DNA of 64,000 nt from Saccharopolyspora sp. NFXS83. Its GTDB lineage: Bacteria; Actinomycetota; Actinomycetes; Mycobacteriales; Pseudonocardiaceae. The translations under genes were made by a program, and so were the position numbers. The notes beneath the pieces were generated by a model. That model saw only the letters and a program-made list of their open reading frames with translations. It was not told where the DNA came from and searched no databases. Positions 55,191-63,885 of this stretch are shown piece after piece. Position 1 is the first letter of the stretch. Each line of letters begins with the position of its first letter. The stretch lies in the NCBI RefSeq assembly GCF_026241095.1, contig NZ_JAPFGB010000010.1, positions 1-64,000 of the forward strand. The letters are read 5' to 3'.

Positions 55191-55940
55191 ATGTCGACAA
55201 CTCGATCAGCCCTCAGATCCACCGCGGTCACCGCCGTGCTCGGATTCACCGCCCTCGCCGGCGCGGGCACCGCCGCCGCGCACGTCAGCGCCCAACCGGA
55301 GCAGGCCGAGCAGGGCGGTTACGCCAAGATCGCTTTCCGGGTGCCGAACGAGCGCCCCGACGCGGGAACCGTCCGCGTGCACGTCGCGCTCCCGCTGGAG
55401 CACCCGCTGAGCTCGGTGCGCACCAAACCGCTGCCCGGCTGGACCGCGCAGGTGGAGAAGGTGCGGCTGGAGCGCCCGGTGGAGGTCGCGGGCGCCCAGG
55501 TCACCGAAGCCGTCGCCGGCATCACCTGGACCGCGCGGCCGGGCACCCGCATCGCCCCGGACCAGTTCGAGGAGTTCGAGGCGACCCTCGGCACCTTCCC
55601 GACCGACACCGACGAGCTGCTGCTGCCCACCGAGCAGACCTACGACAGCGGCGAGGTCGTGCGCTGGGACCAGCCGCCGGCCCCCGACGGCTCCGAACCG
55701 GAGCACCCCGCACCGGCGCTGGCCCTGGTCGCCAGCGAAGGCGGCGGCCACGGCCACGGGACGACCGGCGGCGGGGACACCGGGCACGGCGGCGCGGGGC
55801 ACGGCGAAGCCGATGCCGCCGCCGCAGACGACACGGCGCGCGTGCTCGGCGGCACCGGACTGGCCGTCGGGGCGCTCGGCCTCGGACTCGGAGCGGGCGC
55901 GCTGGTGCTCGCCCGCCGCGGCACCAAGGGGAACGCATGA
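55191..55940 (+). CDS. ycnI: YcnI-type copper-binding envelope protein (DUF1775)
   Basis: 249 residues. Signal peptide to AAA/HVSAQPEQAEQGGYAKIAF; mature His1 with a nearby Glu forms the known copper site of YcnI. The DUF1775 beta-sandwich (about 31-160) is followed by a His/Gly-rich stretch (GHGHGTTGGGDTGHGGAGHG) and a C-terminal membrane helix. It probably chaperones copper outside the membrane. Its stop overlaps the copC ATG. Confidence 0.92.
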   Translation: MSTTRSALRSTAVTAVLGFTALAGAGTAAAHVSAQPEQAEQGGYAKIAFRVPNERPDAGTVRVHVALPLEHPLSSVRTKPLPGWTAQVEKVRLERPVEVAGAQVTEAVAGITWTARPGTRIAPDQFEEFEATLGTFPTDTDELLLPTEQTYDSGEVVRWDQPPAPDGSEPEHPAPALALVASEGGGHGHGTTGGGDTGHGGAGHGEADAAAADDTARVLGGTGLAVGALGLGLGAGALVLARRGTKGNA

Positions 55941-56458
55941 GGCGACTGCTCACGATCACCGCGCTGACGCTCGCGGCGCTGCTCGGCGCGGCCGGTCCGG
56001 CGCTGGCGCACAACACCCTGCTCGGCAGCGATCCGGCGGAGGGCGCCCGGCTGACTGCCGGGCCGAACGAGGTCCGGCTCACCTTCGACCAGCCGGTGCG
56101 CGCGGGCGAGGGCTACAACACGATCAACGTCGTCGGCCCGGACGGCACGTACTGGACCGAAGGTGAGGTGCGGGTCGAGGGCACCTCGGTGGTCGCGCCG
56201 GTGCTGCCGCTCGGACCCGCCGGGACCTACACCGTCGGCTACCGGGTGCTGTCCAACGACGGCCACCCCGTGCCCGGCAAGGTCACCTTCACGCTGACCG
56301 AGCCGGGCGGCGGCACTCCGGCGCCGCCGCCGGCCGCGGACCAGGCCGAGTCCGACTCCGCGGGCGGCATGCCGATCTGGCCGTGGATCGCGGGCGCGGT
56401 CGTGCTGGTCGGGCTGGGACTCGTGCTGGCCCTGCGGTTGGGCAGGCCGAAGAGCTGA
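55937..56458 (+). CDS. copC: CopC-family copper-binding protein
   Basis: 173 residues. Signal peptide to ALA/HNTLLGSDPAEGARL, so the mature protein begins with the copper-ligand His; VLSNDGHPVPGKVTF contains the second His and LTFDQPV the family core. A C-terminal membrane helix (PWIAGAVVLVGLGLVLAL) anchors it outside. No CopD domain is fused. It is coupled to ycnI by an ATGA overlap. Confidence 0.93.
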   Translation: MRRLLTITALTLAALLGAAGPALAHNTLLGSDPAEGARLTAGPNEVRLTFDQPVRAGEGYNTINVVGPDGTYWTEGEVRVEGTSVVAPVLPLGPAGTYTVGYRVLSNDGHPVPGKVTFTLTEPGGGTPAPPPAADQAESDSAGGMPIWPWIAGAVVLVGLGLVLALRLGRPKS

Positions 56459-57126: not shown

Positions 57127-58035
57127 TCACTTGTACGGCTCCCATCGTGCCGCCGCGTCGCCCTCCCGCATCGAGCGCAACCTGCTCCGCAGCTGATCGC
57201 GCACTCCGGGATTGCTGCGCAGGATCGGCAGCACGCTGACCGTGATCTTCAGTTCGCGCAGGTCGCGCAGCACCTGGAACCCGGACCACGCCGTCACGTC
57301 GAAGCCGTAGACCTCCGAGAGCCGGTGGTACCGCTCCGCGGGCGCGCCCAACCGGAGCATCCCCACGGCCATCGGCGTCAGGTCCCACTCCGGTTGCCCC
57401 ACGCACAGCGAATCCAGATCGCACAGCAGCGGACCATCCGGACCCGAGATCAGGTTGCCCAGGTGCGCGTCCCCGTGCACCACCGACGGCGGCAACGGGA
57501 AGTCCAGCGCTTCCAGCCGGCCCTCGACGTCGTCGCAGCGCTGCTCCAGGAACGCCCGGTCCGCCGCGTCCAGGTCCTCCGCGTCGGCGAGCCGCCTGCG
57601 CACATCGGGCATCGGCCGCCATTCCGGCAGCGTCGAGGGCAGCGGCAGGTCGTGCACCTGCCGCAGCAACCGGCCCAGATCGGCCCCGTCCGGGGAGGGG
57701 CCCTCCTCCGGGACCGCCTGCCACAAGGTCGCCAGGTGCCCGCCGGTGCGCACCGGCTGCGGCACTCCCGGCAGCAGCCGCACCGCGGGGACCTCGTGCT
57801 CCGCCAGCAGCCGCCCGGCCTCCACCACGTTCACCGCGCGGTACGAGAACGAGGGCGCGAGCACGATCCGGACGATCACCGGGTGCTCCCGCAGCAGGAA
57901 CACGCCGTTGTTGACGAACCGCACCAGCCGAGCACCGCGGGAGTCCAAGCCCGCGGCCGCACAGATCTCAGCCAGTGCCAAAGCCAGTTTCGGCCGCGTG
58001 TAGCGGCCCTCCGCGGAGCGGGTCCGCGAAGTCAT
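57127..58035 (-). CDS. Aminoglycoside-phosphotransferase-like kinase
   Basis: 302 residues from the ATG at 58035. APH-fold catalytic loop PSVVHGDAHLGNLISG (HGDxxxxN) and metal site LLCDLDSLCVG; N-terminal lobe RFVNNGVFLLREHPVIVRIV. It phosphorylates a small molecule or hydroxylated substrate; resistance function cannot be assumed. It follows the XRE regulator in the same direction (88-bp gap). Confidence 0.85.
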   Translation of the reverse strand: MTSRTRSAEGRYTRPKLALALAEICAAAGLDSRGARLVRFVNNGVFLLREHPVIVRIVLAPSFSYRAVNVVEAGRLLAEHEVPAVRLLPGVPQPVRTGGHLATLWQAVPEEGPSPDGADLGRLLRQVHDLPLPSTLPEWRPMPDVRRRLADAEDLDAADRAFLEQRCDDVEGRLEALDFPLPPSVVHGDAHLGNLISGPDGPLLCDLDSLCVGQPEWDLTPMAVGMLRLGAPAERYHRLSEVYGFDVTAWSGFQVLRDLRELKITVSVLPILRSNPGVRDQLRSRLRSMREGDAAARWEPYK

Positions 58036-58123
58036 CGAGGTCCTGCCCGGTCGTGCCGGTGCATCGCACCGGGGAAACCCGGTCGCCGGGGCCGCGATCC
58101 GCGCTGTCCGCCTCGCACTCGAC

Positions 58124-59494
58124 TCACGCCTCGCGGAAGCGGCGGATCTCTTCGGACAGGTCGCGGGCATCGGAGTTCATCCGGTGCCGCCCGGCCTCCA
58201 GCTCCAGCGGCTTGAGGCGGTCGGCGACGCGCGCCGACTTGACCTTCTCGCCGATCTGCAGCGCCGACCGCCCGACCTTGATGCCCTCCTGCAGGTCACC
58301 GGCCCGGATGTGGTTGGTGGCCTGCAAGCTGAGCCCGAAGACGTGGGTGCGCTGCATGTCCGCGCCGTACGCCTCGTTGCACTTGATCGTCTCGGCCACC
58401 GCGAGCGGCGCGTAGCGATCCGGGTCGAACACGGCCAGCGCGTCGTGCGCCGAGCCGATCATCCCGTGCAGGTCGTTCTCGTTGAAGAACCGCACCCAGT
58501 CCGGCGCCTCGGCCACGTTCGCCCTGGCGAACTCGTCCTTGGTGCGCCCGACCATCTTCTGCACCTGCTCGGGCTTGTTGAGCATCCCGTAGGCCCAGGC
58601 CTCGTTCGCGCACAGCACGGCCACGGTTAACGAGGAACCGGACTCCTGCGCGGCGATCTGCCCCAGCTGGAACAGCTTCAGCGCCTCGTTCGGCTCCTGG
58701 TAGTGCAGGTAGACGCGGCCCATCCGGTACAGCACGCTGGCCACGAGGCTGTCGTCGTCGGCCTGCTTGGCGAACTCCAGCGCCTTGCCGAAGTGGCCGC
58801 GCGCCGGGTCCAGCAGACCGGTGTCGAAGGAGGTCCAGCCGGCCAGGCTGTGCATGTCCGCCAACGACACGTAGAGCTTTCGCTTGACCTGATCGGACGC
58901 GTTCGCGTCGAGCAGTTGCTGCGCCCAGGAAAGCTGGGCGACCACGGCGTCGCGGCAGGTGCCGCCGCCGTAGCGGTAGTCCAGGTCACGCAGCGCCTTG
59001 GTGGCCGCCTGGATCTGCTGCACGTCGGTCATGCCGATGCGCATCGGAGCAGGCGTCTGCACGTTGCTCGGCACCCAAGTGCTCTCCTCCGCCCCGAAGA
59101 CCGCGGCACCCATGGTCACCGCCGCCGCGTGGGACAGGAACTTCCGACGCTTCACCGACTCGTCCTCCTCAGCCTGGGGGCCGCTGTTCGTCTTCGCGAC
59201 CCTCATTGCCGTCGCCCCGTCGTAGGCGAGGCCCATGTACCCCCTCGGTATCCCGAGGCCGTCGGCGATTCGGGCCAGCACGTCATATGCCATGACCTGG
59301 CGGCCCTTCAGGATCTCCGACACCTCGGACTGCGACTGGCCCGTGGACGCGGCGATCTGGCGCTGCGAGACCCCGATCCGGCGCAGTTGCCGGTAGATCT
59401 CGCTGACGTTCCGCGCCGCCAACGCGTCCCGCATCTCACGGCCGTCCCAGACGTCTCGTGTAACGGGCGAGCCGTTCGAACCGATGGTGTTCAT
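58124..59494 (-). CDS. XRE regulator with TPR-like repeats (NsdA-like)
   Basis: 456 residues. Helix-turn-helix at about 30-85 (GVSQRQIAASTGQSQSEVSE, then ILKGRQVMAYDVLARIADGL, IPRGYMGLAY), a linker with KRRKFLSHAAAVTMGAAV, then about eight helical repeats of TPR type (about 165-450). From memory the N-terminal block resembles Streptomyces NsdA-type regulators of differentiation; treat this as tentative. GAGGGGG precedes the ATG. The divergent small genes at 59715 and 60013 share its promoter region. Confidence 0.82.
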   Translation of the reverse strand: MNTIGSNGSPVTRDVWDGREMRDALAARNVSEIYRQLRRIGVSQRQIAASTGQSQSEVSEILKGRQVMAYDVLARIADGLGIPRGYMGLAYDGATAMRVAKTNSGPQAEEDESVKRRKFLSHAAAVTMGAAVFGAEESTWVPSNVQTPAPMRIGMTDVQQIQAATKALRDLDYRYGGGTCRDAVVAQLSWAQQLLDANASDQVKRKLYVSLADMHSLAGWTSFDTGLLDPARGHFGKALEFAKQADDDSLVASVLYRMGRVYLHYQEPNEALKLFQLGQIAAQESGSSLTVAVLCANEAWAYGMLNKPEQVQKMVGRTKDEFARANVAEAPDWVRFFNENDLHGMIGSAHDALAVFDPDRYAPLAVAETIKCNEAYGADMQRTHVFGLSLQATNHIRAGDLQEGIKVGRSALQIGEKVKSARVADRLKPLELEAGRHRMNSDARDLSEEIRRFREA

Positions 59495-59714: not shown

Positions 59715-59999
59715 ATGGGCGGCATCGAGGAGTCCGGATCCCGGGCCGGCATGGAGGTCACCGCGCAAGCGGCGGTGCCCGACCAGGCCGGGCCGAAGCC
59801 GGAATCCGCCGACCGACGCCGATGGTGGCGGGTGCTGTGTCGCGACGTCGTGCACGTCCGCCGCTACCTCACCGTGCTGGTCAACCGGGACAGGGTGGTT
59901 CTCGTCGGACCGCCCGGCCGCACCGTGGTGCTGTCGACCGATGGAGTCGGCGAGTTGAGCAACGCATTACGGCGGGCCGCTGATCAGGCGAGAGAGTGA
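59715..59999 (+). CDS. Hypothetical protein, 94 aa
   Basis: A basic small protein with a central beta-rich block (VLCRDVVHVRRYLTVLVNRDRVVLVGPPGRTVVLS) and a C-terminal helix. No known domain. GGAGAGG lies 13 nt before the ATG; Met13 is an alternative start. It shares direction with the gene 14 nt downstream and diverges from the XRE/TPR regulator. Confidence 0.55.
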   Translation: MGGIEESGSRAGMEVTAQAAVPDQAGPKPESADRRRWWRVLCRDVVHVRRYLTVLVNRDRVVLVGPPGRTVVLSTDGVGELSNALRRAADQARE

Positions 60000-60012: not shown

Positions 60013-60351
60013 GTGGACGAGATATTGGGTCAGGTGCTGCGCAACGCGGTGTGGGAGCGGCTCGACGTGTTGAGCGAGCTGGCGAACCGCGCGGACGCCC
60101 CGTCCCTGCTGTCCGTGGCGCGTTCCGAACTCCCCCGGCTCACCGAGGGGTGGCGAACGCTGCTGGCCGCGCACGACACCGATGACAAGGGCAACTGCAT
60201 CGAGTGCTCGTCCCGATGGCGACCGCGGAGCGCACCGTGCTCCGTGTGGCGCTCGGCTTACGAGCACTTGGTCGCGGGTGCCCTCGCCCCCCGTCCCGCA
60301 CGGCACCAGCGCCCGGCGCACGAGCTGCGCCCGGCCGCGCCGGTGCCGTAG
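60013..60351 (+). CDS. Small protein with CxxC and APCSVW motifs
   Basis: 112 residues. Helical N-terminal half (LGQVLRNAVWERLDVLSEL), then DDKGNCIECSSRWRPRSAPCSVWRSAYEHL, with three Cys in a pattern that could bind zinc. I recall similar CIEC...APCSVW proteins in Pseudonocardiales, without a function. GTG start; 13 nt after the previous stop, likely co-transcribed. Confidence 0.6.
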   Translation: MDEILGQVLRNAVWERLDVLSELANRADAPSLLSVARSELPRLTEGWRTLLAAHDTDDKGNCIECSSRWRPRSAPCSVWRSAYEHLVAGALAPRPARHQRPAHELRPAAPVP

Positions 60352-60723: not shown

Positions 60724-63700
60724 TCACTTCCGCCGCAGCCGAGCGGTGGCGGCGAACTCCGGATCCAGCCGCATGCCGCCGCCCGCGCCGAGGCGGGTGT
60801 GCTCGGCGGGGACCACGAACCACGGTTGCCGCGGCCCGACCAGCGGCGAGTACACCGGCACGAATCCCCTGTCCTGCAACGAGACCGCGAAGTCGGCGCC
60901 GAGCTGCCCGCGCCGGTCCAGCGCGCCGGTGCCCTGCCACGGCAGCAGACCGGAGCCGCCGAGGTAGGTGAACCCGCAGCGCCCCGGGCGGGCCGCGCTC
61001 ACGGTGAGCCGCACCCGGTTCGGGAACAGCAGCTCCTCGTAGCCGAGTTCTTCGTCCACCCGCATCGTCGCCAGGTAGCGCACCACCGTGTGCCAGGCGC
61101 GGCGCAGCACCTCCACCCGCGATCGCCGCAGCATCGGCGGCACCGCCGTGCCGTCGAGGTCGTAGACGTCGGCGTACACCGCCCGCGCCCACGCGACCCG
61201 CTCGATCCCGGCGGGCACCGACAGCGGAACCGAATACACCACCGACATCAGCATTTCGCGGAACATCCCGACCGAGGGCGCCACCGCCGGATCGGCCCCC
61301 GCGGCCCGCTGATCCACCTGGGCGAGGGTGCGCAGCGGCTGGTCGGCGATGTCCAGTCCGCGCAACGCCTCGGTGAGCAGCCGCCGGTGCCGCGCGGCGC
61401 GGTCGGCCCGCTCGGCGGGCAGGTCCACGGCCAGCCGTCGGGCCGCGACCTCGTCCACCTCCTCGATGACGGCGGTCTCGCCGAGCCCGGCGAGGTCGGC
61501 GTACTCGCGCAGGATCGAGCTGTAGGTCCCGGTGATCGACAGCGGCCGGGGCCGGAAGTGCCTGCCATCGGTGAGGATGCGGAACCGCAGGCCCGGCGGG
61601 TGCACGGCGGTCGCCGCGCGCTGCATCTCGCGCAGTCGCACCAGGCCGCCGAACTCGGCGAGGTCCGGCAGCGGCCCGGACGCCTTCAACCCGTTCAGGC
61701 ACTGCTTGATGGGGAACCCGAGCAGCACCACGTCGATCGGCCGGTCCTCGCGCAGGAACGGCTCGACGTCGCGGCGCAGGTGCTCGACCTGGTAGTTGGA
61801 CCGAGCCCCCTTGAGGAACTGCTTGCGGCTGAGCACGTGGTGCAGGGCGTGCACGACCCGGTCGAGGCGCTCGGACTCCGGCACCGGCCCGGTGAGGCCG
61901 AACCGGTCGCGGGCGGCGCGGGCCACCCGGTCCGCGGCCCGATCGGCGTCGGCGAGCACGGTGTGCGCGAGCTCCAGCGCCTCGTCCCGGTTCAGCCGCA
62001 CCGCCCAGCGCCATGCCGATCGGTTCGCGCGCAGCGCACCGATCTGCAGCTCCTCCAGCGAATGCGCGTGCGAGAGCAACCCCGGCCCCGATCCGCCGGT
62101 GCGGGGCCGCGGCTCGGTCTCGAAGGTGGCGATCGCCGGGGCCCGGTCCGGCACCGGCTGCCCCGGTCGTCGTTCGACGACGAGCCCCGGCACCTCGACC
62201 GCGATCGCCAGCGCGGCCGGGTACTCCTTGGTGAGCGCGATCCGGTTGGCGTGCATGTCGTCGAACACGGCGATCACGTCGAGCTCGCCGAATTCCCGCA
62301 GCCGCGCCACTTTCAGCTCCGGGATGGGCCGCGTCCGGTCGTCGGGCATGCACAGCAGTGGCGCGTCGGGGACTCCAGCCGCTTCGAGCACGGCCGCGGT
62401 GTGGTCGCGGACCCGTTCGCGCCTGCCGGTGCAGAACACGACCTGCCCGCCCGCGTCCCGCACGTCCCACACGAACCGGGCGAGCCCGGCGTTGACCTCG
62501 TCGGTGCGCAACCGGTTCCAGGGCCGGGCGAAGGCCCGGAAGAACTCGGTGTGCACCGCCCGCCAGTCCACCTCCGGGTACTTCTCGTGCAGGCCGCTGA
62601 GTTCGAGGAACGTGTGCCAGGTCGAGTCGGCGTAGGTCGGCAGCACCGGCAGCGAATCCGGGTCGGCGAGCTCCGGGATGCCGTTGGGCGCACCGGGCCG
62701 GGGCCCGGCGACCGCGCGGGTCGCTTCGACGGTGCGGCGCAGCGGGATGATCCCGCACAGGTCGAGGTCGATGACCACGGCCGGTTGCGGCAGCTCGCGG
62801 TTCCAGCGGCGGCGCCGCGTCCGGTCCTGCACGGTGTCGAGCACGTGGCGCAGGATCGTGTGCTGGTCGGCGTCGACGTGGTGGACGTGGGGCCGGAGCT
62901 CGGTGCGGGCGAGCAGCCTGGCGGTGGGCCGGTCGAGGTGGCGCAGCTCCTCGGCGAGCACCCGGTCGATCGCGGCGCGCACGGAGTCGCCGCGGGGCGG
63001 CGCGTAGCCGATCCGGCGGAATCCGTCGGCGAGGTCGGCGAACACCGCGAGCAGGGTGCGGGCGGCGTCGCGGGCGGCGTGTTCGTCGGGGGCGGGCGCG
63101 GCCGTGTCGGTGATGACCCGGCCGGTCGCCTCCAGCTCGGTGGACAGTTCGAAGGCGAGCGCGTCCGGTGCCGCGAACAGCGCGGTGCGCCGCACTTCCA
63201 GCGCGTGCCGGAACGCCCGCAGCGGTGGTCGCACGAAGTGCTCCACGAAGAACCGGAGCTCGTGCTCCCGGTGCCCGAAGCGGTTGTCGATGACCAGCCG
63301 CAGCAGGCCGGGCGCCCCGTCCGGGCCCGGAGCCAGCAGCGCCTCCGGCCGCACCGCGACGGTGCCACCGGGATGTTCCGGGTGCGGCGGGGCGGGCAAC
63401 CCGCCGGTTCCGCCCGCGACCGCTCCGCCCGTGGCTCGCCGCGCGGACTCGGGCACCAGCGTGGCGCAGTGCATCCGCAGCAGCGGATCCTCCAGCACCG
63501 TCCGCGTCAGCGGATCCTCCCCCGCCGCGGCGCGGGTCCCGGCCGGGCCGGATGCGCCGAGGGTGGCGGTGAGCCGCGCCAGCCATCCGGGGTCGTAGCG
63601 CCGGCGCCTGCGCCGGAGCCGGACCAGCAGTCGGTAGAGCTCGGCCCAGGTCGGTTCGACGCCCAGCGGCACTCCGCTGCCCGCGCCTTCGCCGACCAGG

Positions 63701-63885
63701 CGGAACATTCCGGCGCGCCACCGCACCCGCAGGTCGTAGCCGCCGTCGCGCAGCAAGCTGTCCGCCTCCGGGACCGACAGCGGAGCCCACAGGTCCTCCG
63801 CGGGCCGGTCCGTCCACATCGGATCCGGTGGTACCTGGCCGAAGGTGGTCGAGGCCGGTCGGGTGACCGGCGTGCGCGCGGTCAC
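60724..63885 (-). CDS. HAD-type phosphatase fused to DIT1/PvcA isocyanide-synthase-like domain
   Basis: 1053 residues. Residues 1-365 are Arg/Leu-rich with no recognised domain. Residues about 368-570 show the HAD motifs in order: VVIDLDLCG (D373, D375), VVFCTG (T486), K525 and VIAVFDD (D542/D543). Residues about 680-900 match the DIT1/PvcA pattern of isocyanide synthases: VVLLGFPIKQCLNGLKASG (717-736), PDLAEFGGLVRLREM, YPPG-like VHPPGLRFRILTDGRHF (761-777) and TYSSILREY. Known members form an isonitrile from tyrosine or tryptophan with ribulose-5-phosphate. The GTG start overlaps an upstream frame by GTGA. Confidence 0.72.
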   Translation of the reverse strand: MTARTPVTRPASTTFGQVPPDPMWTDRPAEDLWAPLSVPEADSLLRDGGYDLRVRWRAGMFRLVGEGAGSGVPLGVEPTWAELYRLLVRLRRRRRRYDPGWLARLTATLGASGPAGTRAAAGEDPLTRTVLEDPLLRMHCATLVPESARRATGGAVAGGTGGLPAPPHPEHPGGTVAVRPEALLAPGPDGAPGLLRLVIDNRFGHREHELRFFVEHFVRPPLRAFRHALEVRRTALFAAPDALAFELSTELEATGRVITDTAAPAPDEHAARDAARTLLAVFADLADGFRRIGYAPPRGDSVRAAIDRVLAEELRHLDRPTARLLARTELRPHVHHVDADQHTILRHVLDTVQDRTRRRRWNRELPQPAVVIDLDLCGIIPLRRTVEATRAVAGPRPGAPNGIPELADPDSLPVLPTYADSTWHTFLELSGLHEKYPEVDWRAVHTEFFRAFARPWNRLRTDEVNAGLARFVWDVRDAGGQVVFCTGRRERVRDHTAAVLEAAGVPDAPLLCMPDDRTRPIPELKVARLREFGELDVIAVFDDMHANRIALTKEYPAALAIAVEVPGLVVERRPGQPVPDRAPAIATFETEPRPRTGGSGPGLLSHAHSLEELQIGALRANRSAWRWAVRLNRDEALELAHTVLADADRAADRVARAARDRFGLTGPVPESERLDRVVHALHHVLSRKQFLKGARSNYQVEHLRRDVEPFLREDRPIDVVLLGFPIKQCLNGLKASGPLPDLAEFGGLVRLREMQRAATAVHPPGLRFRILTDGRHFRPRPLSITGTYSSILREYADLAGLGETAVIEEVDEVAARRLAVDLPAERADRAARHRRLLTEALRGLDIADQPLRTLAQVDQRAAGADPAVAPSVGMFREMLMSVVYSVPLSVPAGIERVAWARAVYADVYDLDGTAVPPMLRRSRVEVLRRAWHTVVRYLATMRVDEELGYEELLFPNRVRLTVSAARPGRCGFTYLGGSGLLPWQGTGALDRRGQLGADFAVSLQDRGFVPVYSPLVGPRQPWFVVPAEHTRLGAGGGMRLDPEFAATARLRRK

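Follow-up and report, generated by a model that had tools for sequence, protein, structure and literature searches.

A HAD domain fused to a divergent, isonitrile synthase-like DIT1/PvcA domain in Saccharopolyspora and other actinomycetes

What would an actinomycete do with a single polypeptide that joins the motifs of a HAD phosphatase to those of an isonitrile-forming enzyme? The question is raised by a gene near the end of the stretch analysed here, positions 1–64000 (the window) of the 239-kb contig C2 in the 6.9-Mb genome of Saccharopolyspora sp. NFXS83. The gene (60724..63885, minus strand, as are all its parts given below) encodes 1053 amino acids plus a stop from a GTG start, the true position of which may differ slightly, up- or downstream. 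It is a single open reading frame (ORF) with a third-position GC of 0.94, and relatives share the same long frame at 46–96% identity, the nearest named one found being Saccharopolyspora sp. HNM0986 (64%). The protein consists of an N-terminal domain, a HAD domain and a DIT1/PvcA domain in one chain. A first-pass annotation made from the sequence had already noticed the fusion of the last two, and this observation is confirmed, with the addition of a conserved N-terminal domain that is predicted to be folded; its interpretation of the fusion is partly supported. We read the protein, with a probability of about 0.5, as a divergent three-domain member of the DIT1/PvcA superfamily, in which an isocyanide synthase (ICS) domain would form an isonitrile or formamide, the HAD domain would act as an accessory phosphatase, and the N-terminal domain would serve in binding.

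According to one source, ICS enzymes join the nitrogen of L-Trp or L-Tyr with a carbon of ribulose-5-phosphate, and it names only two enzymatic routes to isonitriles (PMC7949033). Across the tree of life, Lim and colleagues (2018) describe monodomain ICS, ICS-dioxygenase and ICS-nonribosomal peptide synthetase (NRPS) proteins, the first two in bacteria (PMC5974471), and Nickles and colleagues likewise give the same three architectures for fungi (PMC10153163). The two fusions resemble the window protein in being multidomain ICS proteins, but their partners are TauD or NRPS-like, and neither of the two architectures reported as common in bacteria carries a HAD domain (PMC5974471). No HAD–ICS protein was among the literature matches listed, a weak test of absence because these comprised open-licence papers only and ‘HAD’ also matches the verb. 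If our reading is true, genera noted as antibiotic producers would have a further, new type of ICS architecture, for a class of compounds with reported metal-binding and antimicrobial activity (PMC5974471, PMC13005658).

Identification of the C-terminal domain (residues ~600–1053; 60727..62088) draws on PF05141, AlphaFold2 (AF2), Foldseek and hhalign. In the Pfam scan, DIT1_PvcA (PF05141) scored 41.5 bits over residues 707–797 (cut-off 26.4) and up to 68.5 bits in relatives; as this is the only match in the host genome, with none in 14 control genomes, the assignment is not a matter of chance. An AF2 model of residues 585–1053, made from a 44-sequence alignment with the window's sequence first, had a mean pLDDT of 91.4 and a pTM of 0.92. 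Against the PDB, Foldseek gave this model eight matches at E ≤ 0.001, all of them PvcA (3e59) or PIsnA (9dh4, 9dhm), with a best E of 7.0e-10 and TM-scores of 0.40–0.46 (query) and 0.56–0.66 (target). The family profile finds PvcA/PIsnA entries of the PDB by sequence too (9dhm, E 5.6e-11). Moreover, hhalign of the family alignment (A2) against canonical actinobacterial ICS (A4, six of seven sequences, L021 being left out as it looked cut short) aligned 233 columns (99.3%, E 8.8e-21) as far as the C-terminal motif, which shows that the homology extends well beyond the initial third of the model covered by the Pfam score.

The three blocks that the first-pass annotation had picked out as typical of this superfamily are indeed in the chain: FPIK (724–727; 61705..61716), whose K727 aligns with K66 of PIsnA (9dhm) as counted from the printed alignment, LKASGPLPDLAE (733–744, ending in PDLAE; 61654..61689) and TDGRHF (772–777; 61555..61572). 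At a fourth, PWQG (982–985; 60931..60942), the canonical sequences of A4, all six, have PWH where the window protein has PWQ, and histidine occurs at 984 in 12 of 49 rows once the second copies described below are set aside. In the 36 of these rows in which the HAD region is filled, 14 motif positions are identical throughout (P725, K727, L733, K734, G737, P740, D741, A743, E744, G765, D773, G774, H776 and F777); the 13 further rows vary more, which leaves H776 in 41 and F777 in 40 of all 49. The domain shares with PvcA/IsnA (PF05141; 3e59, 9dh4, 9dhm) the fold, homology to the C-terminus and the motifs FPxK, K, PD.AE, PG, DG..F and PW, all but the last also listed in common with canonical ICS. 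It differs in its 16–19% identity (Foldseek alignments), its larger size, its fusion to the HAD and N-terminal domains and its departure from the HPQ stretch. By computation, then, this part has a predicted PvcA fold and keeps most ICS motif residues. Because that fold and the homology to the C-terminus go together with a clear miss of the tyrosine equivalog (see below), we place it as a divergent ICS subfamily within the DIT1/PvcA superfamily, and judging from alignments and models the protein most likely works like an isonitrile synthase.

The middle of the protein (residues ~366–590; 62116..62790, delimited by Foldseek of a model of residues 1–600) contains the four ordered HAD motifs that had been claimed for residues 373–543: motif I, D373-L-D375 (62761..62769), motif II, T486 (62428..62430), motif III, K525 (62311..62313), and motif IV, D542-D543 (62257..62262). 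All six motif residues (D373, D375, T486, K525, D542, D543) are thus present, and C377 stands at a position where many HADs carry Thr. The AF2 model of residues 1–600 (pLDDT 89.4) gave 42 Foldseek matches at E ≤ 0.001, with MtlD (mannitol-1-phosphate phosphatase), HDHD1A and beta-phosphoglucomutase among the top. The 50 matches listed comprise phosphatases, phosphoglucomutases, phosphonoacetaldehyde hydrolases, the bifunctional MtlD, a pyrophosphatase, HAD-kind hydrolases and one entry titled tyrosine kinase, PtkA; we take all of them to be HAD-fold proteins.

By sequence, no HAD family reaches its Pfam cut-off in the window protein (best PF03767, 15.1 versus 27 bits, and PF25109, 14.2 versus 27.6), and NCBIfam TIGR03351 scores 13.9 bits against a cut-off of 218.9. 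Acid_phosphat_B (PF03767) is the nearest Pfam family, but it stays below cut-off in every member scanned, narrowly so in the Micromonospora relative (26.4 versus 27 bits). The domain therefore resembles HAD acid phosphatases and capped sugar-phosphate HADs in its four motifs and fold, and differs from them in these scores and in being fused. The HAD assignment accordingly stands on motifs and predicted structure. The profile scans suggested by the first-pass annotation thus bore out its DIT1/PvcA half and not its HAD half, and structure prediction gave both, a PvcA-like fold for the C-terminal part and HAD-type matches for residues 1–600. Computation hence places a predicted HAD-fold domain, with its motif residues intact, in the middle of the window protein. 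No second HAD copy was found in the window's genome at E ≤ 1.

The N-terminal domain (residues ~30–340; 62866..63798), delimited by AF2 and an alignment of 28 members (A5), could be assigned to no known family. Most blocks of its model lie above pLDDT 80, with dips near 110–160; the Pfam scan of the window protein gave no match here, and the best E in a PDB sequence search was 0.5. Its resemblance to the C-terminal domain of NRPS-independent siderophore (NIS) synthetases (FhuF, PF06276), considered as an origin, is weak: this comparison was the best-scoring of 34 (the others being 31 neighbour-gene families and two reversed profiles), at an hhalign probability of 3.5% and E 0.012, and the invariant H228/N231 pair (A6) had, by eye, no counterpart at the aligned place. 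With short rows dropped, the alignments kept 44 of 56 (A2), 40 of 46 (A3) and 28 of 49 (A5) rows, window included, and the N-terminal set additionally left out five named loci.

Under the preferred reading, the ICS domain would link a carbon from a pentulose phosphate to the amino group of its substrate, yielding an isonitrile or, upon hydrolysis of the isonitrile, a formamide, and the amine concerned could be one other than free tyrosine or tryptophan. Where intact, the HAD domain might remove phosphate from the sugar co-substrate, the adduct or a by-product. Its activity would be accessory, some lineages doing without it, and a second copy may provide part of it in Saccharopolyspora. For the N-terminal domain, binding of the substrate or of a partner is the most likely role.

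With profile A1, 151 of 390 genomes of the host's family matched, 65 of them strongly (best E ≤ 1e-130), and among 397 genomes of the order 68 matched, 24 strongly, including two strong ones outside the family (G058 and G806). Among 394 genomes drawn from the class there were 111 matches, with a strong one only in the window's own genome. In the other 86 matching genomes of the family the match was weak (E no better than 6e-22) and fell on either the start of the ICS part or the HAD region; the few weak matches inspected were canonical ICS (300–370 aa) or, in the class search, standalone HADs of ~160–170 aa. A collection of named genomes held at least 41 loci, a lower bound because the scan used one short peptide pattern. 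Saccharopolyspora (18) and Actinopolyspora (6) together with Halopolyspora and Halosaccharopolyspora account for 26, the other 15 being in Kutzneria, Nocardia panacis, Micromonospora, Streptosporangium, Streptomyces, Actinoalloteichus, Gandjariella and uncultured actinobacteria. The three-domain order was found again in Saccharopolyspora, Halopolyspora, Kutzneria, Nocardia and Micromonospora.

Whereas the ICS motifs hardly vary across members, HAD residues have been lost in several lineages. With HNM0986 set aside, the intact set (DDTKDD) is found in 10 of the 17 first copies from Saccharopolyspora; six lack only K525, and S. rectivirgula has lost several residues. T486 and K525 are lost in all six Actinopolyspora rows, and the HAD residues are also degenerate or deleted in Halosaccharopolyspora, in both Actinoalloteichus and in strain HNM0986, which has lost D542. 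The domain is deleted in Actinoalloteichus and absent from the standalone ICS of the metagenome-assembled genomes (MAGs) L065–L068, L070 and L071 and of Gandjariella (L072). On a tree of the ICS domain (61 of 65 rows), the HAD state needs ~12 changes, an approximate figure as the tree is quick and has long branches and the HAD labels are lax for K525 (Arg or Lys a few places off being accepted). Since several of these lineages keep the ICS domain, its function does not require the HAD domain everywhere. Actinoalloteichus caeruleus (L014, L064) has no HAD region, and its N-terminal part is in a different reading frame from its ICS part.

Saccharopolyspora also has second copies (L035–L042, L044, L046, L049, L051, L052, L055, L060 and L061, at ~17–23 kb in each locus), with a shorter N-terminal part; two of these 16 sequences run off the edge of their locus. 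All 16 keep DDTKDD, and all keep K727, K734, D741, E744, D773, H776 and F777, while position 774 has become P or A and position 775 is S or T in every one. Selective constraint was compared on 21 chosen pairs. Between the window protein and three HAD-intact congeners, dN/dS of the HAD part (0.12–0.30) is close to that of the ICS part (0.09–0.27), and in second copies the ranges are 0.19–0.38 and 0.21–0.38. Two Actinopolyspora and three kobensis-group pairs show higher values for HAD (0.31–0.45) than for ICS (0.08–0.14), which fits a relaxed need for HAD. Other pairs fit this poorly: a third Actinopolyspora pair differs little (HAD 0.26, ICS 0.21), HNM0986 shows no difference despite the loss of D542 (0.27 versus 0.35 and 0.41 versus 0.42), and the flava–ipomoeae pair, with intact HAD, has 0.34 versus 0.07. 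Read as a whole, the dN/dS data suggest that some lineages depend less on HAD, and the two Saccharopolyspora copies may have divided the labour between them. If our reading holds, nature has provided lineages that lost HAD, lineages that kept it and lineages with two copies, and through them what becomes of the phosphosugar during the ICS reaction could be tested directly.

In the window's genome the gene is divergent from a TetR gene that lies beyond the window (contig 64516–65265), and a scan of the divergent region for promoters and terminators gave none of either. On the other flank are a helix-turn-helix/tetratricopeptide repeat (HTH/TPR) gene (58124–59494) and then an APH-type kinase (57127–58170), with a CopC gene (55937–56458) and a DUF1775 gene (55191–55940) further on; by their family names, the last two would serve in copper handling. 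Most loci of the family show the same arrangement. The TetR or HTH/TPR gene was seen at 36 of 42 loci (the 41 named ones and the window), one of the six without, L057, beginning at a contig end. The TetR, HTH/TPR and kinase genes looked conserved with our gene and were candidate partners, but the two regulators are family-wide. In a relatives set of 36 family genomes, 22 have no strong match to the protein; of these, 20 have the HTH/TPR gene and 21 the TetR gene, and in all 20 with both the two lie on one contig within ~7 kb (a gap of ~1.6 kb in G019). Since the two regulators stand side by side in 20 of these 22 genomes, this is a core block that holds the ICS gene rather than an ICS cluster. 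Homologues occupy several slots in it: the gap between TetR and HTH/TPR (window type), after the kinase (second copies and MAGs), across TetR from the other genes in Actinoalloteichus, and past the copper genes in Gandjariella. The copper genes were likewise dropped as partners on the evidence of DUF1775, which is also found close to the HTH/TPR gene where ICS is lacking (e.g. G015, G026, G034), so that its proximity alone is weak evidence. The first-pass annotation had proposed looking for a PvcB-like oxygenase nearby; in contrast to PvcA/PvcB-type clusters, no such Fe/2OG oxygenase adjoins the gene, and the one TauD match in the genome lies elsewhere, on contig C70.

Outside the core block the setting looks biosynthetic at some loci, with NRPS-type or acyl-carrier neighbours, as a raw count, at four of nine loci examined. 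The gene adjoins a carrier protein, an acyl-CoA dehydrogenase, an AMP-binding enzyme and an alpha/beta hydrolase in Micromonospora (L062); an A-T-C NRPS, a condensation protein and an ABC-2 permease in Streptosporangium (L069); a condensation protein, AMP-binding enzymes, a carrier domain and a reductase in Streptomyces (L073); and an AMP-binding domain, a thioesterase, an ATP-grasp ligase and an MFS transporter in G806 (L149). No such set was seen at Kutzneria L053, L057 and L148, Nocardia L056 or G058 (L152), where few ORFs were Pfam-scanned. L151 (G272) was not counted, being a weak family match (E 6e-22), and L150 (G269) lies outside the nine. In L062 (3442–9666) the gene is divergent from the hydrolase, and there are two acyl-CoA-dehydrogenase-like ORFs, one of them Pfam-scanned; in Nocardia panacis, too, the gene is followed by a hydrolase that falls in the same cluster (L056, 12851–13687).

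Several results count against the reading of the protein as an isonitrile- or formamide-forming enzyme with an accessory phosphatase. The PF05141 match spans only model positions 1–93 of 273, the canonical C-terminal RLSIHPQ (RLS-HPQ being invariant in A4) reads RLTVSAA in the window protein, and the L-tyrosine isonitrile synthase equivalog (NF045653) is missed by far (22.6 bits versus a cut-off of 600). The last two leave tyrosine or tryptophan, the substrates originally proposed, without support; they also qualify an otherwise favourable outcome of the refuting check set by the first-pass annotation, in which the DIT1_PvcA match, the PvcA-like fold and the 14 constant positions stood and the RLSIHPQ stretch did not. 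They would suit a protein whose ICS-like domain has lost isonitrile chemistry, leaving mainly a phosphosugar phosphatase with a binding domain, as would the second copies, in which ICS positions 774 and 775 have changed and HAD is intact. We consider this quite unlikely, given that the ICS motif residues are the best-kept part of first-copy rows, that the ICS domain persists where HAD is gone, and that even the second copies retain seven ICS motif residues without exception. On the HAD side, DDTKDD is intact in only 19 of the 36 HAD-filled rows other than second copies, with one more DDSKDD, and other rows lack the domain. Of the four NRPS-type loci, moreover, HAD is intact in L062 alone, being degenerate in L069 and lacking in L073 and G806, so HAD and an NRPS-type setting do not go together. 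The HAD part might then be a mere scaffold or pseudo-enzyme left from an old fusion, with the ICS domain doing all the chemistry, an idea to which the lineages with degenerate, deleted or absent HAD listed above lend themselves. It seems doubtful to us, because the motif residues are intact in the window protein and three congeners, where HAD is about as constrained as ICS, and in every second copy.

The genomic setting and the literature raise two further possibilities. In the window's genome the scanned neighbours are not biosynthetic, and the two tested are family-wide; and yeast Dit1, a single-domain member of the same superfamily, is argued in one paper to be no isocyanide synthase but to give formyl tyrosine (PMC7345447), so that fold does not fix product. 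The ICS domain could, as in that case, N-formylate an amino acid, directly or via an isonitrile, and the product would then go into the envelope or spore wall instead of being a secreted natural product. This would agree with the position of the Pseudonocardiaceae gene, alone in a block with family-wide TetR and HTH/TPR genes, unlike an accessory cluster, and a fungus with a Dit1-like protein is reported to give a tyrosine isonitrile (PMC13005658). Yet the NRPS-type or carrier neighbours at four other loci, the lack of a P450 among ten window neighbours scanned and the 325 of 390 family genomes without a strong match make such a role unlikely. Conversely, the protein might belong to a second actinomycete isonitrile branch that uses an amine other than free Tyr or Trp, in which the fused phosphatase would destroy the product of the sugar-phosphate step and so make it one-way, and gene duplication would have divided the activities between the two Saccharopolyspora copies. 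The Pseudonocardiaceae product may, on this account, be a copper-binding isonitrile, an idea prompted by the homologues in several slots of a core block holding DUF1775 and CopC. As only one of the four NRPS-type loci has an intact HAD, we hold this whole account to be improbable, and return to the more general reading of a divergent ICS with an accessory phosphatase.

Two other explanations for the locus were tried and dropped. There was no match in 72,556 plasmid records that would point to a mobile element (records of close relatives may be left out of this set, and phage records were not searched), and PADLOC gave no defence-system match for two proteins. The genome G024, which holds the divergent protein, also has a canonical ICS (C2:18866–19612; 251.9 bits). 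Lastly, two small plus-strand ORFs (60013–60351 and 59715–59999) with no Pfam match lie between the ICS and HTH/TPR genes of the window, and by clustering each is present in 19 of 42 loci.

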